From NCBI RefSeq assembly GCF_013166605.1, contig NZ_JABKKF010000004.1:186001-250000 (forward strand): DNA of 64,000 nucleotides, read 5' to 3'. The notes under the pieces were generated by a model. That model was not told where the DNA came from. It saw only the letters and a list, made by a program, of their open reading frames with translations, and searched no databases. This stretch comes from Xylanibacter muris (GTDB lineage: Bacteria > Bacteroidota > Bacteroidia > Bacteroidales > Bacteroidaceae). Of this stretch, positions 9,624 through 42,074 are shown in pieces. The translations under genes were made by a program, and so were the position numbers. Numbering within the stretch: the stretch's first letter is position 1; the number at the start of each line of letters is the position of its first letter.

Positions 9624-11138
9624 TCAAATGTCATTACCCGTGGAATCGGCCTCTGCTTTTGGCTGCGTATTTTCCTTTTGCCTGTTGCTGAATGCGGAAT
9701 CGGCAGATGGCACATGATGTTCCTGAGCGTCAGCATGACGTACATTTCCCGGATGCAAACCGGCCGAGTCGGCTGCCACAGGCGACGGAGTATGTATTCC
9801 TGAACCGTCGGCCTGGGTAAGAAACCTGGCATAGCGGCTGCAGAAACGCGGATTATAGGCATTGAATATATTATTTGCAAAGAGAATGTCTGTTATGCCG
9901 TTGCCAACGACATATTCTTTCATATTCTTTGTAAAATACCGCGTATCCACCACATGCACTTCCTCGAACGAGAAGAACAGATATCCGGGTATGGCATTGC
10001 CGAAACTGTCTTTAAGTATGAGCACACGGCGGCCGTTGTTTGTCGACGTGACAACCTTCGTTATCTTGGCGTCGCTGCCCATGAAGGTGCAGTAGGCTCC
10101 GCCGCTGCCGTCCTTAAACTTATAAAAGAACGGGCCTTTATACGGTTTGCCCATTCCTGTCACATGATAACTCTTGTCTATCCGGTAGTCGATATATGTT
10201 GTGTTGAATGTCACTCCCGAAGGCACGTAATACACAAAATCCTCCGGAGCGTTCTTTATGGATATATCCTTTGAATAGCCGTACATGCTGCCTACATATC
10301 CGTGAACGACCTTGCGGGTATAGCTGTCCAGCTCTCTGAACGGCACTCCGGCCACACGTGCGAATTCCTTTGCCGCATAGAATGCTCCGAGCGGTGACCA
10401 GTGGTGATCCGTACGCAGATAGATATCCTCATCGGCATGCTTGCCCAACGATGTATATACATCCACTGCCTTCACATTGCCGTTCAGCCGGGAATGCACG
10501 TTGTTTATGGTAGGCCACTGTCTGTTTGTCGCCTTTCTGGCCTGTTCGGGACAATAATACTCTATGGCCGTGGGAATGACCATACAGTATACATTCACTT
10601 TGCTTCCGAATGTTTCCTTGTACTTATTTGCCACATCGGCGTATGCGCCTCCTCCGCGAGGGCCTCCTCCGTAAGCCATGAGCGCACGCACCTTGTCGCC
10701 CCTGCCTACAATCACTATTCCTGCATTGGCAATCTTTGCGCTTCCGTCGTCCGGGGTGTCGTTGACGTAGCCGTCCACAAGTCCGTCACCTCCGGAATCC
10801 GACACCGCCCCTGTATCTTCATCATCTTCTGTCACAACGGCATCCGTTTTCTCCGCGGCATGAAAGGTTATCTGGTCTTCTGAGGCGGACAGACGCATAA
10901 AATCCTTGAGATGCAGGCTGACGGCCATCAGTTCGTCACGAAAAGGCTCGCTGTCGCTGAACCACGAAGACACCTCCTTTGTAAAAGCACCGCTTATAAG
11001 CCTCTCAACGGTAAAGTCGGGGAACACGGCCAGGTCGCGTTTTTCCAAATGGGAATACGTGCTGCGCGGAAGCGTATCGAACACCGTGACAAAGGCGGCA
11101 AACACCAGGCCTATAATGAATATATACAGTTTGTTCAT
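9624..11138 (-). CDS. DHHW family protein (AlgX/AlgJ-like), long form
   Basis: The protein has 504 residues. An N-terminal membrane anchor (about residues 4-21) is followed by a catalytic SGNH-like domain with the signature TDHHWSPLGAFYAA (Asp244, His245, His246) and a later KDSFGN block (Ser378), the likely nucleophile. DHHW proteins work with MBOAT acyltransferases to transfer acetyl groups to extracellular polysaccharides, as AlgX/AlgJ do for alginate. A polar, Asp/Gly-rich insert (about 95-135) and a low-complexity tail after 440 separate it from its shorter neighbour (11207-12304), with which it shares most core blocks. It is the last gene of the SGNH-MBOAT-DHHW-DHHW run. The polysaccharide acted on is unknown. 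Confidence 0.8.
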   Translation of the reverse strand: MNKLYIFIIGLVFAAFVTVFDTLPRSTYSHLEKRDLAVFPDFTVERLISGAFTKEVSSWFSDSEPFRDELMAVSLHLKDFMRLSASEDQITFHAAEKTDAVVTEDDEDTGAVSDSGGDGLVDGYVNDTPDDGSAKIANAGIVIVGRGDKVRALMAYGGGPRGGGAYADVANKYKETFGSKVNVYCMVIPTAIEYYCPEQARKATNRQWPTINNVHSRLNGNVKAVDVYTSLGKHADEDIYLRTDHHWSPLGAFYAAKEFARVAGVPFRELDSYTRKVVHGYVGSMYGYSKDISIKNAPEDFVYYVPSGVTFNTTYIDYRIDKSYHVTGMGKPYKGPFFYKFKDGSGGAYCTFMGSDAKITKVVTSTNNGRRVLILKDSFGNAIPGYLFFSFEEVHVVDTRYFTKNMKEYVVGNGITDILFANNIFNAYNPRFCSRYARFLTQADGSGIHTPSPVAADSAGLHPGNVRHADAQEHHVPSADSAFSNRQKENTQPKAEADSTGNDI

Positions 11139-11206
11139 CTCAATGATATTTTTCTGTCTTTCCTATATATTATATCTTTGTAAAAATCACATGCAGTAAT
11201 ATGCGG

Positions 11207-12304
11207 TCACTGCTGTTCCATCATCATCCTGTAACGCCTGCCTGTAGACGCCATGTTTGCATGTATAAGATTGTTGGCAAACAACACGTCTGTAATTCCG
11301 TTGTCCTTGCCGTATGATATCACGTTTCCCGTGAAATATCTGAAATCCACCACATGTATCTCCTCAAAGGAGCCGAACAGATATCCCGGCAGGGCATTGC
11401 CGTAGCTGTCTTTGAGTATCATAAGCTTCCGGCCGTTCTTAGCGGATGTCGACACTTTCACCATACGTGTGTCACCGCCCATAAAAGTGCAGTATGCCCC
11501 ACCGTGGCCGTCGCTGTATGGAATGAAGAAACGTCCGTCCTCAGGTTCGCTCACTCCTATGACATTCTTACGGCTGTCGAATTTGTAATACCTGTATGTA
11601 GTGGTATACGATGAATCCTGAGGGACATAATACACAAAATCTTCCGGAGCTTTCTTAACCGCGATATTTCCTGAAAAACGGTACATGCTGCCTACATAGT
11701 CTCTTACAGTCCGCACATCATACTCTGTTATATCCCTGAACGGCACACCTGCCTTTCCGGCAAAGGCCTCTGCGGCATAATATGCGCCGAGCGGCGCCCA
11801 ATGATGGTCTGTGCGGGAATAGATAGGCTCTCCGGCACGGCTCTGCAACACCGGAAAAATATCGACCGGTGCAACCGAATCGGACAACAGGGAATACATA
11901 TCGCATATCGCCTGATACTCATCGCGTGTTTTCCCGCGCATGCTGTCCGGACAATAAAACGCAACGGCTGTGGGGATGACCATACAATATACATTCACAC
12001 TGTCGCCCAAAGCCCGCTTATAGCTGTTTACCGCCGCCACGTATTCTTCCGCATACTGTCTGGAACCGTGAAATATCTCAAGCGCACGGGTGTTCATTCC
12101 GGTGTCTACGACGAGTATTCCCTCTGACCGGCGCGGCACCGCACGACGCACAGGTCTGCGGGCGGTCTTTCTGCGCACCGTCTTCTTCCTTACCGCAGTT
12201 TTTCCTGCCGCAGGTCTCACTGCCATATAGGCAACCGCATATACGCCTGTTCCACCGGCAAAAATCATGGACAGCATTATCAGTGATATTATTATCTTGT
12301 TCAT
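11207..12304 (-). CDS. DHHW family protein with Arg/Lys-rich linker
   Basis: The protein has 365 residues from the start at 12304 (MNKIIISLIMLSMIFAGG); a further in-frame ATG upstream at 12394 would overlap the MBOAT gene and put 30 unrelated residues before the membrane anchor. After the anchor comes a very basic linker (about residues 34-60, many KK/RR pairs), then the catalytic domain with RTDHHWAPLGAYYAA and LKDSYGNALPGYL. Core blocks such as VNVYCMVIPTA, YVGSMY and APEDFVYYVP are shared almost word for word with the downstream DHHW protein, so the pair arose by duplication. Role: periplasmic or surface O-acetyl transfer with the MBOAT partner. The gene starts 25 bp after the MBOAT stop. 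Confidence 0.8.
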   Translation of the reverse strand: MNKIIISLIMLSMIFAGGTGVYAVAYMAVRPAAGKTAVRKKTVRRKTARRPVRRAVPRRSEGILVVDTGMNTRALEIFHGSRQYAEEYVAAVNSYKRALGDSVNVYCMVIPTAVAFYCPDSMRGKTRDEYQAICDMYSLLSDSVAPVDIFPVLQSRAGEPIYSRTDHHWAPLGAYYAAEAFAGKAGVPFRDITEYDVRTVRDYVGSMYRFSGNIAVKKAPEDFVYYVPQDSSYTTTYRYYKFDSRKNVIGVSEPEDGRFFIPYSDGHGGAYCTFMGGDTRMVKVSTSAKNGRKLMILKDSYGNALPGYLFGSFEEIHVVDFRYFTGNVISYGKDNGITDVLFANNLIHANMASTGRRYRMMMEQQ

Positions 12305-12329
12305 AAACAGTATTTTATATGTTACATCA

Positions 12330-13793
12330 TCAGAATCTCGTATATATGAAGGCATTGTTTGTGGCTCCAACGAGAAGTGCCGCACTAATGCCAAGCATTG
12401 CCACCGATATGACTACGCGCACTGTGAATATCACAGCCGAATGCACGCATCCGCTCTCTCCTGTAATGCGGCTCACAAGCCTGTAACCATAGCTGCGCAA
12501 GGGCATACAGAACGCCACGGCCACTATCCATAGCCAGAAATTATCCATAAGCGAGGCTTCGGCAACAAAGTCGGTAAACTGTTCCGCATTGCCTGTGAAG
12601 GCATTGAAAAACAACTGAAGCGAATTGAAGTCATCGAAATAGAATATCCCCCATCCCGCTATCACAAGCAGCATGCTGTATATATGCAGCAACGGTGACG
12701 GGATACGGTCTTTTATTCTCAGCAACGTATACTTCTCCAGCATCACTATCACACCGAAATACACGCCCCAGATTATAAAGTTCCAGCTTGCACCGTGCCA
12801 CATTCCTGTCAAAAACCATACCACCATGATATTGAATGCCTGGTGACTGCGGTTACCTCCCATTGGAATATATACATAGTCGCGGAAAAAGCTTCCGAGA
12901 GAAATATGCCATCTGCGCCAGAAATCCGTTATAGTGTCGCAGCAATACGGATGGTTGAAGTTCTCCCTGAAATGGAATCCAAGACACCGGCCTATTCCTA
13001 TTGCCATGTCGGAATAGCCGGAAAAGTCGAAGTATATCTGAAGCGTATATGCCGAAATGCCAATCCAGGCACCAAGGGTGGTCAGTTCTCCAAGTCCCGT
13101 GCCCGAGGAAAGGAAAGCATCCGATATCTCCGACAACTGATTGGCCAGTATCACCTTTTTTCCAAGCCCTATGAGAAAACGGTATGTCCCGGCCGCCACA
13201 TCACCGGAAGTCACCTTACGACAGGCTATCTCAGCCGCCACCGTACCATAACGCACAATAGGACCGGCGATAAGCTGTGGAAACATGGATATGTAAAGCA
13301 GCAGATCCATAAACCGGCGCTGCACGGGCGACTCACGACGGTAGACATCCACCAGATATGATATGGACTGAAATACATAGAAGCTTATACCTATCGGAAG
13401 GGCAATTTTCGGCACTCCTACGTTCACGCCCCAATCATTGATCGTCTGGGCAAAGAAGCCTGCATATTTGAAAGTTCCCAATATGCTGAGATTGCATATC
13501 ACGCCAAAGGCAAGTGCCAGCTTCCTCCTGATGTTTCCACCGCTGATACACAGACCGGTCAGATAGTTAAGCAACACACAAAGAAGCATCAGAAATACAT
13601 ATACCGGTTCGCCCCAGGCATAGAATACAAGCGAGAAAAAGACTAATACAAGATTCTTGGCCTTATTCATATTGACACAGCCGGCCTCATCACGGCTTAC
13701 AGGAAGACAGCGGTCGACCCATGCACCCATGAGATAGCAGAGCATGAAAGCCGGAAGAAACACAAAAAGAAAAAAAAGATCAGAAAATACCAT
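12330..13793 (-). CDS. MBOAT family O-acyltransferase (AlgI-like)
   Basis: The protein has 487 residues and many membrane segments. Family blocks are FNHPYCCDTITDFWRRWHIS, SLGSFFRDYVYIPMGGNR and GMWHGASWNFIIWG; the His in the last block is the invariant MBOAT catalytic histidine. AlgI/PatA-type MBOATs carry acetyl groups across the inner membrane and hand them to SGNH/DHHW proteins outside. It lies 25 bp upstream of one DHHW gene and 104 bp after the SGNH hydrolase gene, all on the minus strand, which supports an exopolysaccharide O-acetylation unit. A long minus-strand cluster with no intervening terminator suggests one transcript. Confidence 0.9.
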   Translation of the reverse strand: MVFSDLFFLFVFLPAFMLCYLMGAWVDRCLPVSRDEAGCVNMNKAKNLVLVFFSLVFYAWGEPVYVFLMLLCVLLNYLTGLCISGGNIRRKLALAFGVICNLSILGTFKYAGFFAQTINDWGVNVGVPKIALPIGISFYVFQSISYLVDVYRRESPVQRRFMDLLLYISMFPQLIAGPIVRYGTVAAEIACRKVTSGDVAAGTYRFLIGLGKKVILANQLSEISDAFLSSGTGLGELTTLGAWIGISAYTLQIYFDFSGYSDMAIGIGRCLGFHFRENFNHPYCCDTITDFWRRWHISLGSFFRDYVYIPMGGNRSHQAFNIMVVWFLTGMWHGASWNFIIWGVYFGVIVMLEKYTLLRIKDRIPSPLLHIYSMLLVIAGWGIFYFDDFNSLQLFFNAFTGNAEQFTDFVAEASLMDNFWLWIVAVAFCMPLRSYGYRLVSRITGESGCVHSAVIFTVRVVISVAMLGISAALLVGATNNAFIYTRF

Positions 13794-21674: not shown

Positions 21675-21709
21675 TTCTGAATAGACATATTTCAATTTTC
21701 ATTCATTTT

Positions 21710-21741
21710 TCGGGCGATAAGGCAATGTCTTACCGCCCGAA
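21710..21741. terminator. Bidirectional terminator between fba and the OMP gene
   Basis: Bases 21710-21721 pair with 21730-21741 (12 bp, one A-C mismatch) around an 8-nt loop. T runs lie on both sides (TTTTT before, ATATTTTT after), which suits termination from both converging genes. Confidence 0.75.
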
Positions 21742-21759
21742 TATTTTTATTCAACCATT

Positions 21760-23028
21760 TCACCTTATATCATATCTCAGGCCTACACTAAGACTGAAAC
21801 TGAGCGGTTTGTCATTATAGAAAGTGGGAACACTGCTGTGATTGTTTAGATAATAATTAACCCCTGGCTCCACAAAAAGACCTATACGGCGGTAAAGACT
21901 AAGCCCTGCTCCCAACGACCCGCCTACAGACAGTTGCAGAGGAGATATCGAAACATTCTCTGTGGAATATGTATCAGGCCGGCCAAATACACTTACACGT
22001 GTATGCGTCTTCCCGCTAACCATCTTCTCAACCATTCCGCCTCCGGAAACATACAGGTTAATATACTTGCTGCGCCATATACTGTAGCTAATCTCTAAAG
22101 GAATACCTATATAATGAAGTTTCTGATTGGAATATGACGAATGATTGATTCCTTCCATACCTATATCGGAACGGAGAATACTATACACTATACCGCTTTC
22201 CAAACTCCAACGGCCAGTAAGACGATAACCAACGCCTATTCCTATACGCACAGGCTGATGATGACGTACTTCTGTAACAGGCTGTCCTACCGGACTGCCA
22301 TTTGAGTCATGTATACCATTGGAACCCATTCCCCCATAATAATCATTCTCAACAATGTCATTACCTTTCATTTCCGACATCGTCCCACCGGCAACAGAGT
22401 TGCCCATATACAACCCAGCCATAAGACGACTATCCTTATATGAATAATCCTTATTCCGAACGACCTTATGCCGGTCTGAACGATAACGGTCATCTTTGGA
22501 AAATACGTTATATGAATAAGCATACTCCGTATCTTTATCCTGCACATCCTCCACACCGACAGTATCTACATCTACCGGTTTTACAGCCAATACTTCATGC
22601 TCCGATTTGATTTGCTCGGAAGTCTCTACCTTATGCCGAGCATCCCGACCATCAACATCATCAGGCAATGATTCCAACGTTCCGTCCACAGACCTTATCT
22701 CATCTCCGACTGCCCTTATATGGGAAAGCAATCCACCGGTTTCATCCGTATTCTTCTCCACGCCAGCCCTTTTCACAACGACAACCTCCCGGCTAATCTC
22801 ATCATTCATAACCACACCGATACCGATAAGAATCAACAACACAGCAGCCACGGCTGCAATATGCCGGCTCCACACAACGGGCCTGTTTTCAACATCAGGC
22901 TTCCGGCTACGCCCGTCAATGTCATGCAATGCGCGTTCCACCTCATGCCATGACACATCAGGCAAGGGTGCCGCATGACTTTCCATCATCCGCCTAATAT
23001 CATCTTTCCATCGTCCGTTCATGCTCAT
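21760..23028 (-). CDS. Anti-sigma-like trans-envelope protein with outer-membrane barrel
   Basis: The protein has 422 residues. The N-terminal region (1-50) is a short cytoplasmic part, with DVSWHEVERAL recalling helices of anti-sigma factors. It is followed by one inner-membrane helix (about 55-74), a long polar Asp/Glu/Lys-rich periplasmic stretch (about 80-260), and a C-terminal beta-barrel (from about 265: VRIGIGVGYRLTGRWSLESG to LSFSLSVGLRYDIR) of the porin/OMP_b-brl_2 type. The start codon overlaps the stop of the sigma gene (ATGA), so the two are translationally coupled. A single chain that could contact the sigma factor, cross both membranes and sense events in the outer membrane is the simplest reading; that role is inference. 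Confidence 0.7.
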   Translation of the reverse strand: MSMNGRWKDDIRRMMESHAAPLPDVSWHEVERALHDIDGRSRKPDVENRPVVWSRHIAAVAAVLLILIGIGVVMNDEISREVVVVKRAGVEKNTDETGGLLSHIRAVGDEIRSVDGTLESLPDDVDGRDARHKVETSEQIKSEHEVLAVKPVDVDTVGVEDVQDKDTEYAYSYNVFSKDDRYRSDRHKVVRNKDYSYKDSRLMAGLYMGNSVAGGTMSEMKGNDIVENDYYGGMGSNGIHDSNGSPVGQPVTEVRHHQPVRIGIGVGYRLTGRWSLESGIVYSILRSDIGMEGINHSSYSNQKLHYIGIPLEISYSIWRSKYINLYVSGGGMVEKMVSGKTHTRVSVFGRPDTYSTENVSISPLQLSVGGSLGAGLSLYRRIGLFVEPGVNYYLNNHSSVPTFYNDKPLSFSLSVGLRYDIR

Positions 23029-23615
23029 CGGTGTTTTTTTCTATATTCATTTAACTTTCCGGCAAGTATTATTCTTGCCCTGTGATACTGCGAAGCCGAA
23101 GTAGTCTCTTTTATGCCAAGTAATTCTGATATTTCCTTATGACTCCTATTCTCGATGACAAACAGGTTTAGCACCGTGCGATATCCCAACGGCAATTCCC
23201 TTATCATCGCATGGACCACATCAGGAGGAATACCGTCCACATCAGGATCATCCCATTCCGGATCTGACACTCCGGAAACACCATAAACAGAGAAACTGGC
23301 ATCATCGTCCATGGAAACTATCGAACGGTAATCATTCTTCTTTATAAAATCAAGGGACATATTCACGGTAATCCTTACAGACCAGTTTTTCAACGAGCCT
23401 TTACCACGGTATTCAAACTTTTCTATACTGCCGAATATTTTTATCAGACAATCCTGAACTATGTCTTTCACATCTTCATCATTACCAATATAACGTGAAC
23501 AGACAGAAGAAAGGAAGCCTCCATAACGTTTATAGAACTCCCGCATAGCCAAAGGTTCTCCTTTACGAAGACGCCTCACAAGCTCCCTTTCCTCATCATG
23601 TCCGACAAAAAGCAT
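23025..23615 (-). CDS. ECF-type RNA polymerase sigma factor
   Basis: The protein has 196 residues. Region 2 is seen in FYKRYGGFLSSVCSRYIGN and DVKDIVQDCLIKIF, followed by GSLKNWSVRITVNMSLDFIKK. Region 4 is seen in LPLGYRTVLNLFVIENRSHK and EISELLGIKETTSASQYHRA. The acidic linker between them (SDPEWDDPDVDGIPPD) is typical of Bacteroidota ECF factors. Start and stop codons overlap with both neighbours (TGATG with the NigD-like gene, ATGA with the barrel gene), so the three proteins are made together. It should direct RNA polymerase to a small regulon and be held in check by the product of the next gene. Confidence 0.9.
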   Translation of the reverse strand: MLFVGHDEERELVRRLRKGEPLAMREFYKRYGGFLSSVCSRYIGNDEDVKDIVQDCLIKIFGSIEKFEYRGKGSLKNWSVRITVNMSLDFIKKNDYRSIVSMDDDASFSVYGVSGVSDPEWDDPDVDGIPPDVVHAMIRELPLGYRTVLNLFVIENRSHKEISELLGIKETTSASQYHRARIILAGKLNEYRKKHR

Positions 23616-24313
23616 CAGTCTGCCGTGTCCTTACGCTGGAAATATGTAAATTCTCTTGTTCTTTCGCCTGTATACGACTTCCACATAAGAATAATCTTAA
23701 AGGGTTCCCCTCCTTCGTTGAAATAGTCTGGAAGTCGGAATGCAACAACGCCGTCACCGGCTACTCCCGTATATGTATCACCGTCTGCCTTATGGCTGAA
23801 CTGTAATATAGGACCATCATGATTTATATCATCACGAAGCACAAGGTTCACAGCATGTTTACTGCCTGGATTCCAACGCGTACGAAAACGTATTGTCAGA
23901 TAACCGTCTTCCGTTCCCATCTCCCAGGAATCCAATATTTCCACGGGATCCGTAGCAAAATCCGGATTATCCCTGAAATCCCTTATGGAATAAGTCGGCT
24001 TGGTAAGGATGCTGTCTATCCAGTTTATCCTTACATTCATGTCTGACATGCCGGTAGAAAGCCTTGTATAGTTTACAAATGCCCTCACCTCCTTATTACC
24101 GAAAGGCGATGACTTCATATTCTGGGGAACAAGAATCTTATTGTCCGTCAGCTGCAGTACAAACGATGTATTATCGCTATTAGGCTTAACCGTGACTATG
24201 GCATTAGGAACAGATGATATATACACCATATCATCATCGTTGTCACACGAAGACAAAACAAACGACAACACCGGAATAAGCATAACTAATAAAAAGAATC
24301 TGAATCTGTTCAT
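23615..24313 (-). CDS. NigD-like lipoprotein
   Basis: The protein has 232 residues. A lipoprotein signal peptide ends in LSSC with the lipidated Cys23, followed by DNDDD, which in Bacteroidota can act as a surface-export signal. The rest matches the NigD-like layout: NAIVTVKPNSDNTSFVLQLT, NYTRLSTGMSDMNVRINWID, SILTK, then a beta-rich C-terminal domain (YLTIRFRTRWNPGSKHAVNL). NigD-like proteins are widespread in Bacteroides and Prevotella; their role is unclear. Here it is the first gene of a translationally coupled operon with an ECF sigma factor and a barrel-bearing anti-sigma-like protein, which suggests a signalling part at the cell surface. Confidence 0.75.
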   Translation of the reverse strand: MNRFRFFLLVMLIPVLSFVLSSCDNDDDMVYISSVPNAIVTVKPNSDNTSFVLQLTDNKILVPQNMKSSPFGNKEVRAFVNYTRLSTGMSDMNVRINWIDSILTKPTYSIRDFRDNPDFATDPVEILDSWEMGTEDGYLTIRFRTRWNPGSKHAVNLVLRDDINHDGPILQFSHKADGDTYTGVAGDGVVAFRLPDYFNEGGEPFKIILMWKSYTGERTREFTYFQRKDTAD

Positions 24314-24466
24314 AACATTTTATGGTTTAATTGTTAATAACTGCCTGTTGCATGATTACTACACAATACAGGCTTATACGTAAAAAATAATGAGCCGACT
24401 GTTGCAACCGCTCATATATAAAACAGAATTAAACATAAACCTCGCACCGCAAAACGTTAAACAGAG

Positions 24467-25153
24467 TTAAAGAAGTCCTTCTTCCCTATATGAATAATAT
24501 TTCCCATCGGTAATTATAATATGATCAAGAAAATATATTCTCATCGCAGCACATGCAGCCTTAACCATTTCTGTCAGCCGTGTGTCCTCTGCGCTCGGCC
24601 TTGCATTATTGCTGGGATGATTATGACACAGTGCCACCACCGTTGCATTACACAGCAATGCATCGCGCATTATCACACGCACGTCGACAGCAGTCTCACT
24701 GAGCCCGCCATGCGACAGTCTCTCTTTCTTTATAAGCTTCAGACTCCGATTCATAAACAACACCCAAGCCTCCTCAACATCAAGATCCTGCATGACCGGA
24801 TGCATGATATTGTATATGGCTGTGGCAGAACTCAAGTCAGGCCTATCCTCCGCCTGCTCCAACTGTCTGCGCTTACCGAGCTCACATGCGGCAAGTATGG
24901 ATATAGCCTTTGCCGGGCCTACCCCTTTATATTTTGTCAGATCGCTTATAGACTTCTTGCCGAGTGTGTTCAGATTGTTATTGCAATCACTCATAACACG
25001 CTTCATAAGTTCCACCGCACTTTCCTTAGGCGAGCCGGAACCAATGAGTATGGCCAAAAGCTCTGCGTTCGACAACGCAGGTGCTCCCATTCTTTCCAAT
25101 TTCTCACGCGGACGGTCTTCCTCCGCCCACATGTTGATGCTCAGTTTGCCCAT
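24467..25153 (-). CDS. radC: RadC/JAMM domain DNA repair-like protein
   Basis: The protein has 228 residues, the usual length for RadC. It has the N-terminal helix-hairpin-helix (KGVGPAKA, 76-83) and the C-terminal JAB/MPN domain with the metal-binding pattern HNHPSN...SAED (His177, His179, Asp190). The family is conserved, but its repair function has been questioned and the biochemical role is unsettled. The gene lies 45 bp downstream of the glycosyltransferase gene on the same strand and may be co-transcribed. Confidence 0.9.
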   Translation of the reverse strand: MGKLSINMWAEEDRPREKLERMGAPALSNAELLAILIGSGSPKESAVELMKRVMSDCNNNLNTLGKKSISDLTKYKGVGPAKAISILAACELGKRRQLEQAEDRPDLSSATAIYNIMHPVMQDLDVEEAWVLFMNRSLKLIKKERLSHGGLSETAVDVRVIMRDALLCNATVVALCHNHPSNNARPSAEDTRLTEMVKAACAAMRIYFLDHIIITDGKYYSYREEGLL

Positions 25154-33087: not shown

Positions 33088-34092
33088 TCATTTTTTGTCG
33101 TTGAGACGCTTGCGTTCGGCTTCGAAAACTTCGAGGAAGTGGATCTCTACAAGCGAAAGTTGGCTTTGGGTGCGTTCGCGAAATTTGTCGTACTCTTTGT
33201 CGGCTTTCAGTTTAGCGACCTCGGCTGACACGCTTCCGGCATGGGTCAGCAATTCCTTTCCTGACAGTTTGAGAAAATCATCGAGCTTCTGAATCCAGTC
33301 TTTCATATACATCGGTACATGGCTCTTGGCTTGTAGCTCGGCGAAATCAAGATAAAGACTGACGATGCGGTTGAGCATATCCACCTCCTCTTCCGATAGG
33401 TAGTTCTTTGTAATCTCTGCTTCTTGCTTTGTCGGCATCGCGCTGCGCCATGATGTAAGACCCATAAAATCATTTTCGGCATTGGCACGATTATAGATTA
33501 CCTCGGCTGCCGTATGTCCGTGTACGGCAAAGTGCATTTTGTTTTGCACCGTCTTGAAGAACCGTTGAGTGGTTTCCGTGCGTGGATCGTAGTCGATACT
33601 CAGGGCATAAATCTCCAGCACTTTGCGATAAAACACCTTCTCTGAGCTACGGATATCACGGATTCTCGCAAGCAATTCATCGAAGTAGTTGCCTTGACCA
33701 GCATTCTTCAACAGATCATCATTCAGCGCGAATCCCTTTATCATATACTCCTTCAAAACACGGGTAGCCCACTGTCTGAACTGCACACCACGATGTGAAT
33801 TGACACGATACCCCATACTGATAATCATATCGAGGTTATAGATTGGGATTTTGCGCTCGACCTGTCGCTTGCCTTCAGTTTGAACTTGTGCAAAAAATGC
33901 ACAAGTTGAATCAGTTGTCAATTCGCCCTCGTCGTAAATCCGCTTGATATGCCGTTGTATAGTTGAGCGGTCGCGTTGAAACAGCTCCGCCATTTGGTCT
34001 GCGGTAAGCCACACTGTCTCGTTGGCAAGTCGAACCTCAATCTTCGTCTCGCCACCCTGCGTCTGGAATAATATTATCTGCCCGTTATCCAT
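33088..34092 (-). CDS. RhuM-family protein
   Basis: This 334-residue protein belongs to the virulence RhuM family. Diagnostic stretches are IEVRLANETVWLTADQMAEL, FQRDRSTIQRHIKRIYDEGE (a helix-turn-helix-like segment), NLDMIISMGYRVNSHRGVQF and RQWATRVLKEYMIKGFALND. RhuM was named from Salmonella pathogenicity island 3, but relatives are common next to restriction systems; the molecular role is unknown, and a DNA- or nucleic-acid-binding adaptor is likely. It is the last gene of the five-gene operon, starting 5 bp after the HD-ATPase stop. Confidence 0.85.
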   Translation of the reverse strand: MDNGQIILFQTQGGETKIEVRLANETVWLTADQMAELFQRDRSTIQRHIKRIYDEGELTTDSTCAFFAQVQTEGKRQVERKIPIYNLDMIISMGYRVNSHRGVQFRQWATRVLKEYMIKGFALNDDLLKNAGQGNYFDELLARIRDIRSSEKVFYRKVLEIYALSIDYDPRTETTQRFFKTVQNKMHFAVHGHTAAEVIYNRANAENDFMGLTSWRSAMPTKQEAEITKNYLSEEEVDMLNRIVSLYLDFAELQAKSHVPMYMKDWIQKLDDFLKLSGKELLTHAGSVSAEVAKLKADKEYDKFRERTQSQLSLVEIHFLEVFEAERKRLNDKK

Positions 34093-34097
34093 AACTA

Positions 34098-37000
34098 TTA
34101 CCTATCAGGCTTACTCATTTTTGTTCCATCAAGGAATTTAAACGTCCAGTCATTATATTGATTCCAAAACTCATCGCTTATTTTACTAATCATTGTCTTA
34201 CGATCAACCTTACCTGGACAAATAATAATATTGTCAATATCCATGTTGGTCACGAGCAAAGTCCACCCGTTTTTTACGCCTTCATAATATATGGGTTCTA
34301 AGTCCTTAATTGGCTCTAATAACTCATTATCACGAGGGGTTAGGATGGAAGGAGAAATATATGCAAGATAAGGAGTACAAGATTTTCCATAAGGGAAGCT
34401 TTCCTCAAAGTCCATACATTGAAATTTGCTCTTCTTATTATCAAATGCATGAATATACGAATCTCTTGACTTTCCGAAATTACTATCGACAGTATAAATA
34501 CCTATTCCAGGATTCACAAGCCGAGCATCTTGAAAAAATAGTTCATTGTAACAATTGCTATATGCATGCACAGATACAGCGTTACTGTTTGGAACAGCAT
34601 CCGGATATCTTAAACTATCAATCAGTCTTTTTGGAACAAGAGGGTATAAGTTAGAAATGATATCATACTCTTTGAAGGTGTCATTCTCAACTGCTGGGAC
34701 AAGATATCTTGAATATTCCCAAAAATCCTCTGTTTCGGGAATAGGATTCTCTGAATTTCTAGTTATTTTTATAGTAGTATTATTGATGGCCTCTATGTTT
34801 TCTGCGCTTATGAATAGAGCACATACAAGCATTTTGCTCAAATAGTCTAACTGAGCGTGATTATATTGGTATAGCAATATCTCATTTAGTGATAGTAATT
34901 CCCGTATTGTCATATCCTTACCAGTAAGACTCTTGACTGAAGGCCACAATATATTACCCAACTCAGATTTTGCTAAATTATTAACAAAAATCGACTGAGC
35001 ATTTCCCATCCTATTAAAAATATACCTCCAAATTAGATTTACAGCATCTATATTATCGGATAAATTATATAGTTTAATATGTCTATGAGCAACCTCTATA
35101 ATCTTAATTATATACTTTTCGATGACTTCTCGGTATTTTTCGGAATAGTCACTTGATAAGGATATAATTTCTCTTCTATCAACACTTAGCTGGGGCTTTA
35201 TGGAACCAATATAGTTTATACTCCCGTTTAATCTTAAGCGACTATAATATTCATTTCTATCAGAAAGTCTATCTTCAACACTGATTCCATCAACAGAAAT
35301 AGAAGATCCTTGCACCTCTAATAATTTGAACAAAAGTGTTTCCTTATCAAAAGTCTGCATGCCTGGCAATGGGAGTGCCATTATAGAATTATACTCTATA
35401 GATTCTGTTTTGATATGAATAGGGTATAATTTTAGATGCTTTTGAAGTTCTACGAGTGATCCATTAAATTCATAGAATGAGCCTCTTTGAAGAACTCTAT
35501 CAATGAAATTTTGGTCTTCTGGTTCAATGCCCAAATCACCTATATTCAATGTGAACGGTTTATCCATAATAATCTGAGTGGAATTATCAGAGAATCGGAC
35601 TTGGAGTGTTATTTCAGAAGGCACGTTATTGATATAATCATTTAGATAATGGTATATACTCGTTTCCCATATTTCATAAATAGGATTGTAGTTAACAAAA
35701 TCGTCTGTCAACACTCCATTTGGCTTGTACTGAAGCACTAACCCCAATTTTTTAATAGGTGTATTGTTTATCTTTTTTACATACTTAGAATGCAAAAATA
35801 CTTTTACTATGGTACCACTTTCAGAAATTTGTTCCTCATCTTCTCTTGATGGTACTTTATAGTAAAAATTCTCTTTAGCTCCATCAATGCAGCACACAAT
35901 GCATTGATGTGTTTCTATTGATTTTGTTATGATCTCAATTCGGGAACCAATAATAAAACATGACAATATGCCTATACCGAACTGAGAAACAGGAGTATAT
36001 GTCGAACCCCACTGAGATTGTTTCCTATAAAACTCTCTTGAATTATAGAAGGAATTTCCAATCTTTAAAAGGAAATTCTCAATTATATATTCGTCCATTC
36101 CAATCCCATTATCTTTGCAATAAAGAAATTGACCTTCATTTCCTTGTTCAAGGCCAAACTCAATTTCTCCAGTCAATGTCTGTCCACTCATTTCAGCTAT
36201 TGCTAAACGACAACGGCAAGCATCAAGAGAGTTTTGATACAATTCCCGTATTGAAGAGAACGGGTCTTTATATAGTTTTACACCCATTAACAGTTCGATA
36301 ATTTTATTTTGACTGAGGGTGAATTTTTTGTCTTTTACCGGTATAAACTTTGACTTGTCGTAGTCTACATTACTACGATCAACTTCATTAATATTGATTT
36401 GATATTTGGGTTCCCATCCTCTTTTCAAAAGATCGAAATTATTAATTTCTTCATCTATCCAATTTAAATAATCTTGCAGATGATAATAGTCTTTTGGTGT
36501 TTGGCAGCTAGCCATAAATGTAATTACACCATCTTTTATAGTGTAATTAAGACCTATTTTATTTAACCATTCATTTTTACTATATTCTGATTGGAAGGAC
36601 ATTGCGTTTCTAAGAATAGACGGAGCTCTATCTGAACTATAATGTATTATATCTCCAAGGCGTAGCATCATAGATATGAATTGCAAATTTGCCATATCTA
36701 AACCTATGTATTTAACATCCTTCTTTAGTTTACGCATGAATTCAATATCCTCTCCATGAGACATACAAATATCTGCTAAATCTGAAAAGAGGCGGTGAAT
36801 CCATACCTCACCTAAAATATCAATGGCTACTTTTTGTAAGTTCTTTACATATTTAGCTGATTTTCTATGATGAGAAGTCCGTATAAAATCTACTCTAATA
36901 GAATGATTTAATGCTTCAAAAGTGTCATTTTTTACCGCTTCATTAATTATATTAATATAGCCATTCCTAAATGCCTGATATTCAATAAGCATTTCTGAAA

Positions 37001-37508
37001 GAGAGTCCTTGAGATCATTCTCGTTATCAGGTGCGAAGTACCAATTTTTTATATCATCAAAGCTATTATATAAATCCTGTTTATTATTGTCAATGAATTC
37101 TTTTGCTTCTCTGAAAGTAAAAGGTCTCCTTCCATCATTGGAAATTGACTTTATAGAGCTTGCATGAGAATCATATCCCTCAGTCATTTCCATTAATGAT
37201 AATTCCCAATCTGCGGGAGCCATCCCACAATCGTGAAGAAAAGATGCCGCTAATAATAGAAATAACTCTACAGAAGACAGCTCTGTTAATAGTGCATCCC
37301 CTAATAACAACGCAATATTTTCTTCGACTTTTTCCAAATGGGTAGAGTCATGAAGATCAAATTCAGGCATAATTTTTATAACTCTTTTCTGATGTTCAGT
37401 TGATAACTCAATAACCCTTTGAGCTAGCAAATAAAGCCTATTATCAAGACTGTCAGGATTTATTGAAGCACGTTGTTTAAGAACGGAAATAATATGACTC
37501 ATAGCCAT
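34098..37508 (-). CDS. HD domain - GHKL (Hsp90-like) ATPase fusion protein
   Basis: The protein has 1136 residues. Residues about 30-295 form an HD-type domain: DLHDSTHLEKV (His53, His57), SFLHDCG (His92-Asp93) and MLRLGDIIHYSSDR (Asp285). Residues about 400-560 form a GHKL ATPase: SIRELYQNSLDACRCR (Glu422, Asn426, Asp429: N box), CKDNGIGMDEYI (G1 box) and SQFGIGILSCF (G2 box), as in Hsp90 and MORC-like proteins. The remaining 570 residues (about 565-1136) have no motif I recognise; by position they may correspond to the middle and dimerisation parts. The gene sits between the type III methyltransferase (5 bp gap) and RhuM (5 bp gap). Its base composition is clearly more AT-rich than the chromosomal neighbours, a sign of transfer. 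A defence role is inference from context; the HD part could act on nucleotides or phosphodiesters. Confidence 0.75.
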   Translation of the reverse strand: MAMSHIISVLKQRASINPDSLDNRLYLLAQRVIELSTEHQKRVIKIMPEFDLHDSTHLEKVEENIALLLGDALLTELSSVELFLLLAASFLHDCGMAPADWELSLMEMTEGYDSHASSIKSISNDGRRPFTFREAKEFIDNNKQDLYNSFDDIKNWYFAPDNENDLKDSLSEMLIEYQAFRNGYINIINEAVKNDTFEALNHSIRVDFIRTSHHRKSAKYVKNLQKVAIDILGEVWIHRLFSDLADICMSHGEDIEFMRKLKKDVKYIGLDMANLQFISMMLRLGDIIHYSSDRAPSILRNAMSFQSEYSKNEWLNKIGLNYTIKDGVITFMASCQTPKDYYHLQDYLNWIDEEINNFDLLKRGWEPKYQININEVDRSNVDYDKSKFIPVKDKKFTLSQNKIIELLMGVKLYKDPFSSIRELYQNSLDACRCRLAIAEMSGQTLTGEIEFGLEQGNEGQFLYCKDNGIGMDEYIIENFLLKIGNSFYNSREFYRKQSQWGSTYTPVSQFGIGILSCFIIGSRIEIITKSIETHQCIVCCIDGAKENFYYKVPSREDEEQISESGTIVKVFLHSKYVKKINNTPIKKLGLVLQYKPNGVLTDDFVNYNPIYEIWETSIYHYLNDYINNVPSEITLQVRFSDNSTQIIMDKPFTLNIGDLGIEPEDQNFIDRVLQRGSFYEFNGSLVELQKHLKLYPIHIKTESIEYNSIMALPLPGMQTFDKETLLFKLLEVQGSSISVDGISVEDRLSDRNEYYSRLRLNGSINYIGSIKPQLSVDRREIISLSSDYSEKYREVIEKYIIKIIEVAHRHIKLYNLSDNIDAVNLIWRYIFNRMGNAQSIFVNNLAKSELGNILWPSVKSLTGKDMTIRELLSLNEILLYQYNHAQLDYLSKMLVCALFISAENIEAINNTTIKITRNSENPIPETEDFWEYSRYLVPAVENDTFKEYDIISNLYPLVPKRLIDSLRYPDAVPNSNAVSVHAYSNCYNELFFQDARLVNPGIGIYTVDSNFGKSRDSYIHAFDNKKSKFQCMDFEESFPYGKSCTPYLAYISPSILTPRDNELLEPIKDLEPIYYEGVKNGWTLLVTNMDIDNIIICPGKVDRKTMISKISDEFWNQYNDWTFKFLDGTKMSKPDR

Positions 37509-37513
37509 AATTG

Positions 37514-39367
37514 TTAGAATGCGAAGAACTTGTCTTGCATTTTGTTTTTGAGGTTGAACTTCTTGGTGGAGTCAAGGGCGCGCTCAATGCAGATGAACTT
37601 TGTGTCGGTATGCTGCATGAAATATTCGACTGTTGAATCTTTCAATTCACTATCAACACAGATATAGGCGGTTTTTATGCTGTCTGTTGCGAGATAGACG
37701 GTATTATCCGTGAATGTCGGCTGCTGTTCGAGCTTGTATGTGAGCATAAATCCTCTGGAAATGAGGATTTCGGTGATGAGTTCGTCATTGATAAATGGCA
37801 TTGTTGTTTGTAGCTCTTTTTGACGAATATATTCACGGAACAGTTCAAGATTCTCTTTTTCTGACTTATCCGGGTCAGGGGCAAAGTCCGTGCGAGGAAA
37901 TGATGACCTGGAGAGTGTGAAGACCTTAAAGCCGAGTTGTTCTAATTGCTGCTGATCTTCAAACGTAGTAATTTTTCCAACAAAGGATTCTTCCACCTTT
38001 TTAGCAACAGCTTTGTTTCGAGCGATTGTTATGTCGCTAATTTTCTTGAATCCGGATCGTCGGGCATTACTGTTTTCAGAAGTTATCTCAGGAACTTGCA
38101 CGAGTATGTATTTCCTGTTCCCATTATCTTCGGTGTTGAGTTCAGTTACAGCTTGCCCGGTGGTTCCAGAACCTCCAAAGAAATCTAATACGATTGAATT
38201 TGCCGATGTCCCAGCTCTTAGAATATGTTTGAGAAAGAATACAGGTTTTGGGAAAGGGAATATACCGCCCAAACCTAATTCTTCCATGTCATTCTGACTT
38301 GATTTAAATTCATTGTCATTCAAGAGAGTGCGCAGTTTCTTGCCTTCAGCCATACGTTGCTTAAACTGAACAGACCATTGCCCATCATCTTTATGAACAA
38401 ATCGTACTTCTCCATCTGCTTTATCTTGGAGAAAGCGTTCTTCGCTCCGAAACCAATTACCTTCCAGCATTGTCCCATCTGGAGCTTCAATTAGGTAAGG
38501 AATCGTTGCAGTGCAGGAACGTTCCATTGTATCCCAAAAATATTTCCCTTTTTCATCTTCATAAGCATATCTCTTTAGATATGCTTGGTCAAATGGGATG
38601 AACATGTTTGGAAGAGAATTTTTATCTTTAGCATACACTACCACAAAATCATTTTCGATTGCGAAAAATTTGGAAGCACTTCCTCCTCCAGCTTTGGTGC
38701 GGCGAGATAGTATAGCTAAGAAGTTTTCTATTCCAAATACTTCATCGCACACTTTCCTAAGATGGTGTAATTCGTGTTCCGCAATAGATATAAAAATCAC
38801 TCCATCTGAATGAAGAAGATTCCTTGCCACAAGCAAACGGCTATACATCATATCCAACCAATTACTGTGAAAACGACCGCTCGCATCTGAGTTAGAGTCA
38901 AGCGTGATGCCATCCTCAGATTGTTCTGTTCGCTCCCAATAGGCTTGACGATTTTCCGCAAAATTGTCATTGTATAGGAAATCTTCACCTGTATTATATG
39001 GAGGGTCGATATAGATTACCTTCACCTTATTTCGATATCCCGCCAATAGAATTTTCAAAACTTCAAGATTCTCACCTTCAATTATAACATTTTCCGTCTT
39101 TTCAGGATTGACGCTTCGCGATTCATCATAATGCAAAGTGGCGCGAGTCGGCATAAATGCATTTCGCTTCGCTTTTGATTTGCCGAACCAACGGAACTCA
39201 TATCTTTCAGTTTCCTCAATACCTTCCGGGTTGACGGCTTTCTTAATCTCGTTGATATCAAGTTGCCCCTCTTGGGTGAACCAATCAGGGAAAAGGTTAC
39301 GAAGCGTTTCAAGACGTTCAGCGTTCATATCCGGGGATTGTATTATATGGTCTTTATATGTTTCCAT
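37514..39367 (-). CDS. mod: Type III restriction-modification methyltransferase (Mod)
   Basis: The protein has 617 residues. It is a beta-class adenine methyltransferase: DPPYNTG (121-127) precedes the AdoMet motif FFGGSGTTG (396-404). The target-recognition region lies between them. It would methylate adenine in the recognition site and direct the Res subunit. The ORF starts inside the 3' end of res (14 bp overlap), so it is translated from the same message. Order is res-mod rather than the usual mod-res. Confidence 0.9.
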   Translation of the reverse strand: METYKDHIIQSPDMNAERLETLRNLFPDWFTQEGQLDINEIKKAVNPEGIEETERYEFRWFGKSKAKRNAFMPTRATLHYDESRSVNPEKTENVIIEGENLEVLKILLAGYRNKVKVIYIDPPYNTGEDFLYNDNFAENRQAYWERTEQSEDGITLDSNSDASGRFHSNWLDMMYSRLLVARNLLHSDGVIFISIAEHELHHLRKVCDEVFGIENFLAILSRRTKAGGGSASKFFAIENDFVVVYAKDKNSLPNMFIPFDQAYLKRYAYEDEKGKYFWDTMERSCTATIPYLIEAPDGTMLEGNWFRSEERFLQDKADGEVRFVHKDDGQWSVQFKQRMAEGKKLRTLLNDNEFKSSQNDMEELGLGGIFPFPKPVFFLKHILRAGTSANSIVLDFFGGSGTTGQAVTELNTEDNGNRKYILVQVPEITSENSNARRSGFKKISDITIARNKAVAKKVEESFVGKITTFEDQQQLEQLGFKVFTLSRSSFPRTDFAPDPDKSEKENLELFREYIRQKELQTTMPFINDELITEILISRGFMLTYKLEQQPTFTDNTVYLATDSIKTAYICVDSELKDSTVEYFMQHTDTKFICIERALDSTKKFNLKNKMQDKFFAF

Positions 39368-42074
39368 TATTGTTGATTGTTTGATTAGCTTGCGCTTTAA
39401 AGGTTTCGTATTCCTTTATGGGAGCTTTATAAAAGGCTTCGATGCCCAGAGATTTGAAATGTTTGACAGCACATTTTATTCTGCCAATTTCATGTGGGGT
39501 TAAAGCTCTCGTATCATTTATATCATTGGTGCCTTTTATCTCCACAACGAAATAATACTCCTTGTCTTCTGCATGATTATTGAGGGCTCTCTTGTGCAGA
39601 ACAATTCCAAAATCAGGCTCATAGTTGCCGATAGGAGTGAGGATCTTATACCATCTGGGGAATTTAAGGAAGCATAAAACTTCGGTATTGGTGATTTTGT
39701 CTGCTTCTATTGCAAAATCCTTTTCATGGAGACTGTCATAAAGCGTTTTATCCCATACTCCATGATTTGGGGTGGCGACCCAATCATCGCAGCCATCTTT
39801 GGAAAAATCACTAAAGTCAAAGCCATAAGTTTCTCCAGTAGGCTTGTATTCAACACAGCGTACAAGCTCATCGAGCTGAACTTGTCGAATCTTGAAGACT
39901 GCCTGTTCCATGAACACAGGAGGATTCTTGATATATTGGTCTTTATTGCTGATTCCTTCAATAATCTTTAGTACAGAGGTGTAGCACAGACCTGTCTTCT
40001 CGCTAATTTCTTCAACAAGATCATGGGGATTATACTTAGCTTTTCCCACATACGATTCAGAGCCAAAATATTCAGCAGTCTCCAAATTACTGATGTCCGT
40101 GACTCTCATACTTTGAACATCGAGGGTATAGTCATTGATACGTATTTCGTCTAATGACTCTATACTCTTTCTGATCAAAGTTTCCTCGTCCATGTGTACA
40201 CGATAGGATGTTTTTCTGGAAACGACATTCCAGAAACGATGGAATACGCCCATGACTGTTTCATCCTTTTTTAACTTGAACGTCACACGATTTAAGCGTT
40301 TACCTTTATGTGTTCGTTTCGGCTTAGGAATATGAACTCCGTTACCATATTGTTCCTCATATTCCTGTTGATAACAACGGGCAAATGTTTCGTATGTCTC
40401 GTTTGGGACAATGGTAAGCTGATTAAGCAATTCATCTTCCGGAGTCTCGTCATCATCATAAATCCGTTCTCCATTTTGATTGACACATATACGCAAACCA
40501 CGTCCTATCTCCTGGCGTTTCTTGTTTTCCGAATAGCTTTCGTTAAGGGTGGCGATACCAAAAACATTCGGGTTGTCCCAGCCCACACCCAAAGCCGAGT
40601 GGGAAAAGATAAACTCTATAGGGCTGTCAAAAGAAAGAAGGTGTTGCTTATTATGGAGTATTTCATCAAAAATCTCTTTATTTCTTCTGCAAGCATCCTC
40701 CTTATCAGTATATTCGCCTTGTGTTGTTTTGGCAAAGTAGAATCCTTGAACTGATTGAATTTCTATGTCTGTTGGCTGTTTACCCTCGTTGTATTCCGGA
40801 TAAACCTCACGATACTTCTGCTCAAAAATTTGTTTGATTATGGGCCGTTCAACGCTCATATAGTTGGCGACCCTATCAATAAAAATCAGAGACAGATTCT
40901 TAATACCTTTGGGCTTTAACCTATTCTTATTCTCAAAGTGCCTCCGAATCAGCCATTCAAGCTGTAATGCCCAAACTTGTTCTTTATTAGCGGAAGATGC
41001 ACCTTCAACAATTTCCGTGCCATTAGTAAATGCCACATGCCATTTACGGTCTGACATAGACTTATAGATTCGGCTAATAGTGAAATCCAGATATGATTCA
41101 TTGCCGGATTTATCGGCGAGATTGTCATCTTTTTTCAACCACCCGGAATCTTTGAATTCAAATCGTCCTTTTGTTTTATTGAGTTTCCAAAATTTCAATT
41201 TTACCTTGACCTGTGAAGCGGACGGTTGAACATCTCTTATCTCCAATTTCATGGTAGCCTCATCATTACTTTCAGATACGGTAAGCACCTCAAGCCTCTT
41301 CACAAGCCCAAGTCGATAACTTTCAGCAGGGGTGAGCTGATAAAGAACATTCTTCTTAACCGCGTGAGTCGCAGAATATCGAAACTTAAACAACGGATTA
41401 AGCTTTGCTATCCATTGTTTTGAGTTTTCGGTATCCATGCCCTCTTGTGGCTCGTCCATAAAGACAATAGGATGGGTCTGTGCCAATGCATCCCGATAGG
41501 AAAGCTCATTAAAAAGAATCTCTCGTTCTACTTGATTCAGAATTTTATCTTCTGAATTGAACGCAGCCAATGTCAGAACCATAATCTGCAATTGATCTGA
41601 TGTAATAAAATCATTCAATGCAGATATTTTTGAACTATCATAGACAAAAGCATTTGGAGTTATATCGTACTTATCTACAAGCTGTTCTTTGAAATTGTCA
41701 ATTGTATCTATAACTCCTTGACGTATAGGAACAGATGGAACAATAATAATGAATTTGCTTAAGCCGTACTCCTTATATAGCTCGTATGCAGTTTGTATGT
41801 AAGTCAGTGTCTTGCCTGTACCTGTTTCCATCTCAATACATGCTTCGTTCTCATCGCATATAAAAAATTGGGAATCAGGTATGCTATTATCTTGTATTAC
41901 TCGTTGAATATTTTCGTGAAGCTGTTGATTTGACAGAGAACAGACATTTGTATGAATGTCCTCGATATGAGCATTGTCATAGGTATTGCGCTCCATACCA
42001 CGAAAAACCTCAACCACACTCTGTATGGCTGATATCTGATGTTGCGGATTTTCGAGCTTAAATTGCATAATCAA
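39354..42074 (-). CDS. res: Type III restriction endonuclease subunit (Res)
   Basis: The protein has 906 residues (or 904 if the second ATG, MQFKLENP, is used). It is a superfamily 2 DNA translocase with EMETGTGKT (Walker A, 82-89) and FMDEPQ (Walker B/motif II, 207-210), plus FSHSALGVGWDNPNVFGIAT and KKRQEIGRGLRI (motifs V and VI). The C-terminal part has the PD-(D/E)XK nuclease pattern (YEPDFGIVL ... YYFVVEIKGT, about residues 818-852). With Mod it cleaves unmethylated DNA after translocation. It starts 3 bp downstream of the XRE regulator stop. Confidence 0.92.
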   Translation of the reverse strand: MIMQFKLENPQHQISAIQSVVEVFRGMERNTYDNAHIEDIHTNVCSLSNQQLHENIQRVIQDNSIPDSQFFICDENEACIEMETGTGKTLTYIQTAYELYKEYGLSKFIIIVPSVPIRQGVIDTIDNFKEQLVDKYDITPNAFVYDSSKISALNDFITSDQLQIMVLTLAAFNSEDKILNQVEREILFNELSYRDALAQTHPIVFMDEPQEGMDTENSKQWIAKLNPLFKFRYSATHAVKKNVLYQLTPAESYRLGLVKRLEVLTVSESNDEATMKLEIRDVQPSASQVKVKLKFWKLNKTKGRFEFKDSGWLKKDDNLADKSGNESYLDFTISRIYKSMSDRKWHVAFTNGTEIVEGASSANKEQVWALQLEWLIRRHFENKNRLKPKGIKNLSLIFIDRVANYMSVERPIIKQIFEQKYREVYPEYNEGKQPTDIEIQSVQGFYFAKTTQGEYTDKEDACRRNKEIFDEILHNKQHLLSFDSPIEFIFSHSALGVGWDNPNVFGIATLNESYSENKKRQEIGRGLRICVNQNGERIYDDDETPEDELLNQLTIVPNETYETFARCYQQEYEEQYGNGVHIPKPKRTHKGKRLNRVTFKLKKDETVMGVFHRFWNVVSRKTSYRVHMDEETLIRKSIESLDEIRINDYTLDVQSMRVTDISNLETAEYFGSESYVGKAKYNPHDLVEEISEKTGLCYTSVLKIIEGISNKDQYIKNPPVFMEQAVFKIRQVQLDELVRCVEYKPTGETYGFDFSDFSKDGCDDWVATPNHGVWDKTLYDSLHEKDFAIEADKITNTEVLCFLKFPRWYKILTPIGNYEPDFGIVLHKRALNNHAEDKEYYFVVEIKGTNDINDTRALTPHEIGRIKCAVKHFKSLGIEAFYKAPIKEYETFKAQANQTINNNGNI

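Follow-up and report, generated by a model that had tools for sequence, protein, structure and literature searches.

A window of 64,000 nucleotides from the genome of Xylanibacter muris, by which we mean the whole stretch of DNA that was analysed, very probably contains a Prevotella-type Das/Dma (EcfO-Reo) operon, in which the Dma protein would restrain an adjacent ECF sigma factor, stress would free it and the lipoprotein NigD would be produced as the output. The central interpretation, a link from the cell surface to sigma through one protein chain, is essentially a published class, to which the window adds a member. The assignment is based on gene layout, domains, family membership, conserved pairing, a promoter-like motif and tether length, as given by sequence and structure prediction; inhibition of sigma, induction by outer-membrane stress and the output role of NigD would follow by analogy with the published relatives.

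Operon layout and predicted proteins

The genes follow one another on the minus strand in the order nigD, sigma and dma, and their coordinates are exact (Table 1). The junction of nigD and sigma is TGATG, a 1-nt overlap, and the overlap of sigma and dma may couple the translation of these two genes. The preliminary description, which had all three genes overlapping in one operon, was confirmed for the window, but the nigD/sigma overlap is not general and was present in 13 of the 42 loci with co-directional nigD that were counted among relatives (a 43rd, L118, lies outside that count). A terminator-like hairpin between dma and a convergent aldolase gene closes the operon, and the radC-like gene upstream of it has its end at 24467.

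Table 1 Features of the operon in the window
Feature	Position	Strand	Description
nigD-like lipoprotein gene	23615..24313	-	232 aa, lipobox LSSC then DNDDD; Pfam/NCBIfam matches
ECF sigma factor gene (das/ecfO-like)	23025..23615	-	196 aa; domain matches, homology
dma, anti-sigma/barrel gene	21760..23028	-	422 aa; domains and AlphaFold2
Sigma/dma stop/start overlap ATGA	23025..23028	-	4 nt; read in sequence
Putative cytosolic anti-sigma domain, Dma residues 1-52	22873..23028	-	predicted helices 4-17 and 27-37
Predicted inner-membrane helix, Dma residues 53-74	22807..22872	-	AlphaFold2 and hydropathy peak of 2.7
Predicted disordered periplasmic tether, Dma residues 75-201	22426..22806	-	127 aa; residues 75-200 mostly pLDDT < 50
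Predicted 8-stranded outer-membrane barrel, Dma residues 202-422	21763..22425	-	OMP_b-brl_2, AlphaFold2 and Foldseek
Two-box promoter-like element GGTGCGAGGTTT-N8-TTCTGTTTTATA	24417..24448	-	103 nt upstream of nigD ATG; divergent copy of family motif
Terminator-like hairpin, bidirectional	21709..21741	.	-21.1 and -20.1 kcal/mol, z -5.7 and -5.0

The lipobox of NigD and the acidic residues after its cysteine were read in the sequence; the protein is predicted to be a surface lipoprotein, and the acidic stretch DNDDD is taken by us to be the surface export signal. Pfam detected NigD_N and NigD_C above cut-off, the score against the NCBIfam model NF051862 ('NigD1/NigD2 family lipoprotein') was 191.4 bits at a cut-off of 60, which places the protein in that family, and the solved structures 3k0y, 3k6o and 4pqx are related to it by sequence. 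The sigma product carries Sigma70_r2 and Sigma70_r4_2 above cut-off and shares 42% identity with its homologue in Phocaeicola massiliensis; phage relatives were found in 10 records, with identities of at most 31% among the five matches listed.

Dma contains OMP_b-brl_2 above cut-off and, at residues 7-74, a weak match to the NCBIfam anti-sigma model NF052375 (E 0.006, below cut-off). Its full-length identity with the homologue of P. massiliensis is 24%, identities with the relatives aligned are just 21-34%, and no solved structure matching Dma by sequence was found. AlphaFold2, supplied with 63 sequences (its own and those of 62 relatives from named genome records, out of 77 listed at full length), returned a model with a mean pLDDT of 71.3 and a pTM of 0.56, in which barrel residues 202-421 mostly exceeded a pLDDT of 90, except in a loop of low confidence at 215-239. 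The top PDB matches of the barrel in Foldseek were to the OmpA transmembrane domain. With an even number of strands, the barrel would have both its ends on the periplasmic side, which is needed if the chain arrives from the inner membrane. That one chain runs from the cytosol to the outer membrane and partners the neighbouring sigma had been proposed from the first reading of the sequence; model and homology agree on it, and it is the published Dma/Reo architecture.

W7 and P23 of Dma are nearly invariant in the 63 aligned sequences, and residues 1-52 presumably bind sigma. Were Dma an ordinary outer-membrane protein, residues 1-74 would represent an uncleaved signal or a mis-called start instead of an anti-sigma region, a reading with which the below-cut-off score against NF052375 is consistent. 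However, N-terminal region and barrel are equally well conserved (mean top-residue frequency 0.45 vs 0.46), and the pairing with sigma, the existence of sigma-Dma fusions and the genetics published for relatives, as far as the available texts describe them, favour the anti-sigma role, so that we consider this reading scarcely credible.

Two other segments of the window were also recorded. Type III restriction-modification genes (Mod 37514-39367, Res 39354-42074) are located within 33088-42074 on the minus strand, together with a gene for a large HD-CE/HATPase protein after them (34098-37508, minus strand) and one for a RhuM-family protein matching the PADLOC candidate defence family PDC-S05, and this segment is likely a defence island. 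At 9624-13793 (minus strand), an MBOAT acyltransferase and a DHHW/AlgX-like pair are encoded, as in polysaccharide O-acetylation loci.

Published relatives, sigma-dma pairing and the place of NigD

FecR-type and RseA-type anti-sigma factors are membrane proteins that control ECF sigma factors; their chains reach no further than the periplasm and need a separate partner, either a receptor in the outer membrane or a protease, whereas the chain in the window continues into an outer-membrane barrel. In this respect it resembles, by description, Dma1-Das1 and Dma2-Das2 of Bacteroides thetaiotaomicron, since the text of PMC13088901 (J Bact 2026) describes Dma as an anti-sigma domain, a membrane helix, a disordered tether and a barrel, with an adjacent ECF21 sigma factor and a link to NigD. 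The window sigma is adjacent and overlapping as in that family, the ECF21 label being the description given for the published relatives, and the window system is of the Prevotella type as against the two systems of B. thetaiotaomicron. Unlike the Dma2 operon, which is described there as carrying other genes, the window operon starts with nigD.

Dma3 of B. thetaiotaomicron is described as having a built-in sigma domain (PMC13088901), and the one further Dma homologue of the X. muris genome is a Dma3-like sigma-Dma fusion of 567 residues (positions 3816-5519 of locus L034, on contig G000:C23), in which sigma, anti-sigma and barrel form one chain, whereas the window pair consists of two genes. 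Four more fusions were detected in three or more related genomes, and all five form one fully supported clade; such natural fusions tie the functions of sigma and Dma together. Likewise, Reo of Phocaeicola vulgatus is described as spanning all compartments with EcfO as its partner (PMC9308784, PMC13114119), and the EcfO-Reo systems of P. vulgatus and Bacteroides fragilis, as presented in these texts, share with the window an anti-sigma factor spanning both membranes, an adjoining nigD (judged by locus number) and NigD as output. EcfO-Reo was reported in all Bacteroides and Phocaeicola species analysed (PMC9308784), and the single family match in the P. massiliensis genome, at a locus where nigD, sigma and dma lie together, is therefore as expected for EcfO-Reo. 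No paper joining the name Dma with Prevotella was found in a full-text search of the available literature.

The conservation of the pairing was assessed in the best 80 of at least 583 candidate loci, obtained by a profile scan of genome contigs with the sigma alignment A2, with gene starts taken as longest-ORF starts. In all 80, dma lay directly downstream of sigma, within 41 nt, a count that is biased upward because the sigma factors that make up A2 were themselves taken from loci with an adjoining dma; the two genes overlapped in 65, and the overlap was the identical 4 nt in 34. A pairing of this regularity is not due to chance. Adjoining nigD genes were identified at 49 of the 80 loci, 43 co-directional and 6 divergent, the divergent ones (L135, L136, L143, L145, L151 and L152; Phocaeicola, Bacteroides-labelled and Mediterranea) having an intergenic region in common with sigma-dma. 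The window, with its co-directional nigD, thus differs from the two Phocaeicola loci L135 and L151. Beside the remaining 31 pairs, including all nine Flavobacteriia loci, nigD was not found, one of them (L110) having too little upstream sequence.

Family matches were present in 30 of 60 genomes (X. muris and relatives). In a tree of 118 sigma rows, linkage to nigD was clustered (12 changes vs 39 when shuffled), and the window sigma fell among nigD-linked Prevotellaceae, but no starred branch holds it. A phylum-wide profile search at E <= 0.001 yielded matches in 42 of 198 genomes, near full length in a single stretch in two of them, X. muris included; the partial matches in the others may stem from barrels or anti-sigma factors of other kinds. 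A second NigD-family gene of X. muris (G000:C11:22946-23251; L033 / L070) is located away from sigma-dma.

The preliminary description had suggested that NigD might carry the surface signal. As such a sensor, NigD would bind an outside ligand and push on the barrel, and its predicted surface location and its presence at 49 of the best 80 loci are compatible with that role; against it stand the 31 pairs without nigD and the behaviour of the published NigD proteins of P. vulgatus and B. thetaiotaomicron, which follow sigma activity in the accounts of PMC13114119 and PMC13088901. NigD1 of B. thetaiotaomicron is described as an output of Dma1 signalling, being induced in a dma1 mutant and needed for hypervesiculation (PMC13088901), and the nigD genes of P. 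vulgatus are described as transcribed by EcfO, the tested NigD protein being absent without EcfO (PMC13114119). We therefore abandoned NigD as signal carrier and regard a sensor role as very unlikely.

A promoter-like motif upstream of nigD

Word counting upstream of nigD-first operons revealed GCAAG and ATTTA boxes, from which an expectation-maximisation model was obtained. The family motif, ATGCAAGgTTT-N7/8-nngGATTTA, has 22 bits and usually lies about 60 nt or less from the start. At least 15 bits were reached by 42 of 54 held-out upstream regions and by 0 of 1080 shuffled ones, 9 of the 54 scoring below 10 bits; these figures were obtained with a motif seed taken from this very region set and with random folds that ignored clade, and some of the 54 regions are near-duplicates of one another (such as L042/L134, L047/L128 and L109/L119). 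The motif also reached at least 15 bits in 10 of 57 regions without co-directional nigD, which were outside training, and a variant, ATGCAGTATT...ATTTA, preceded sigma in three and nigD in two of the six divergent loci.

The copy in the window scored 18.4 bits, or 14.6 under a model trained without the window, and was the top score on both strands of the 64 kb, the runner-up having 13.0; it is among the weaker copies of the family and is 103 nt from the ATG, compared with about 60 nt or less for most. A strict pattern, shaped to include the window copy, had one match in the whole genome. The motif before most nigD-sigma-dma operons, together with this copy, implies that the operon may activate itself, and the simplest reading would be self-activation with NigD as a co-product. 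No strong motif was found near the second nigD gene or the sigma-Dma fusion of X. muris.

A regulon beyond the operon could not be defined, because a relaxed pattern, with 111 and 89 sites, is not specific: its reversed form still matched 48 and 54. Among the relaxed-search sites scored (the first 30 loci of each search), the best had 20.2 bits (G000:C1:214907-214935, minus strand, L155) and lay 52 nt before a glycosyltransferase gene. This site was attractive since P. vulgatus is described as inducing an LPS-region glycosyltransferase (PMC9308784), but none of 29 homologue loci (29 of the 38 matched besides its own, two with possibly misplaced starts) exceeded 5 bits. The candidate was accordingly dropped, and the site is probably due to chance or species-specific. 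According to the text of PMC7366714, B. fragilis already has a published EcfO motif, which dates from 2013, and we make no claim that the motif described here is new.

Tether length and the proposed coupling of Dma to sigma

In the proposed mechanism, Dma would be anchored in both membranes by one chain, and its cytosolic helices would hold the co-translated ECF sigma. Outer-membrane stress or failed barrel assembly would change or remove Dma and thereby free sigma, which would transcribe its own operon from 24417-24448; transcription would supply NigD, a surface lipoprotein, as the response output, as well as more sigma and Dma, and the new Dma would restore inhibition. EcfO-Reo of P. vulgatus is described as induced by the toxins BcpT and Bd-A (PMC9308784, PMC13114119), of which Bd-A is described as a BamA inhibitor (PMC8546649).

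The tether of Dma is constant in length rather than in sequence. In the 63-sequence alignment its median length was 132 residues (5-95% range 118-161, CV 0.11; 127 in the window), whereas the length of the first barrel loop had a CV of 0.33, and its mean top-residue frequency was 0.21, far below the values of barrel and cytosolic part given above. In a wider set of 116 sequences the medians were 130 for 102 Bacteroidales, 143 for 9 Flavobacteriia and 122 for the 5 fusions, with CVs of 0.16, 0.05 and 0.06, respectively; the Bacteroidales ranged from 19 to 191 with a few outliers, and the tether ends depend on the alignment. The linker had initially been called acidic, which is mildly so in the window (30 D/E and 21 K/R in 127 residues) but is not a family trait, as the net charge per residue varied from -0.17 to +0.05 in the 63 sequences. 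Acidity was thus rejected as a functional trait, and the narrow length combined with drifting sequence and charge indicates that length, not composition, is kept.

How a change at the barrel would reach sigma can be explained in more than one way. In regulated proteolysis, stress would expose the tether to a periplasmic protease, an RseP-like site-2 protease would then cut the inner-membrane helix and release sigma, and the barrel would be the sensor end only. A disordered tether of 127 residues is a natural protease substrate, the membrane helix contains helix-weakening glycines in its sequence, and two predicted periplasmic proteases of P. vulgatus are described as rising upon BamA inhibition. 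The X. muris genome also has one Peptidase_M50 match above cut-off, the family of site-2 proteases, although such matches occurred in all 14 control genomes and their presence therefore says little. On the other hand, the tether, at the low residue conservation stated above, has no conserved cleavage motif, and the available text of PMC13088901 describes no proteolysis of Dma. We hold proteolysis to be a substantial possibility, somewhat short of probable; it concerns the coupling step and not the family assignment.

Alternatively, the tether may act as a spring set by its length, an idea that we offer tentatively and consider rather doubtful. By estimate, 127 residues measure 48 nm along the contour and 6-9 nm as a free chain, and a worm-like-chain calculation gives a pull of about 5-14 pN for a tether spanning 20-25 nm, with persistence lengths taken from textbooks and the periplasm assumed to be 20-30 nm wide; under these assumed parameters the estimate suggests why tether length would matter. 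Extended to about half of its contour, such a spring would report by its pull that the barrel is assembled and the distance between the membranes is right. Because sigma and Dma would be translationally coupled, each new Dma not inserted by BAM would leave its partner sigma free. If true, the spring would be a self-reporting gauge of outer-membrane assembly, and a separate sensor would be unnecessary.

Neither the motif nor the constant tether was met in the available texts on the relatives. The motif allows the regulon to be sought from sequence, and since tether length is kept while the letters drift, the question of Dma signalling can be tested by length alone. With this operon, a Prevotella-type lineage very probably joins the systems with direct control of sigma from the outer to the inner membrane.
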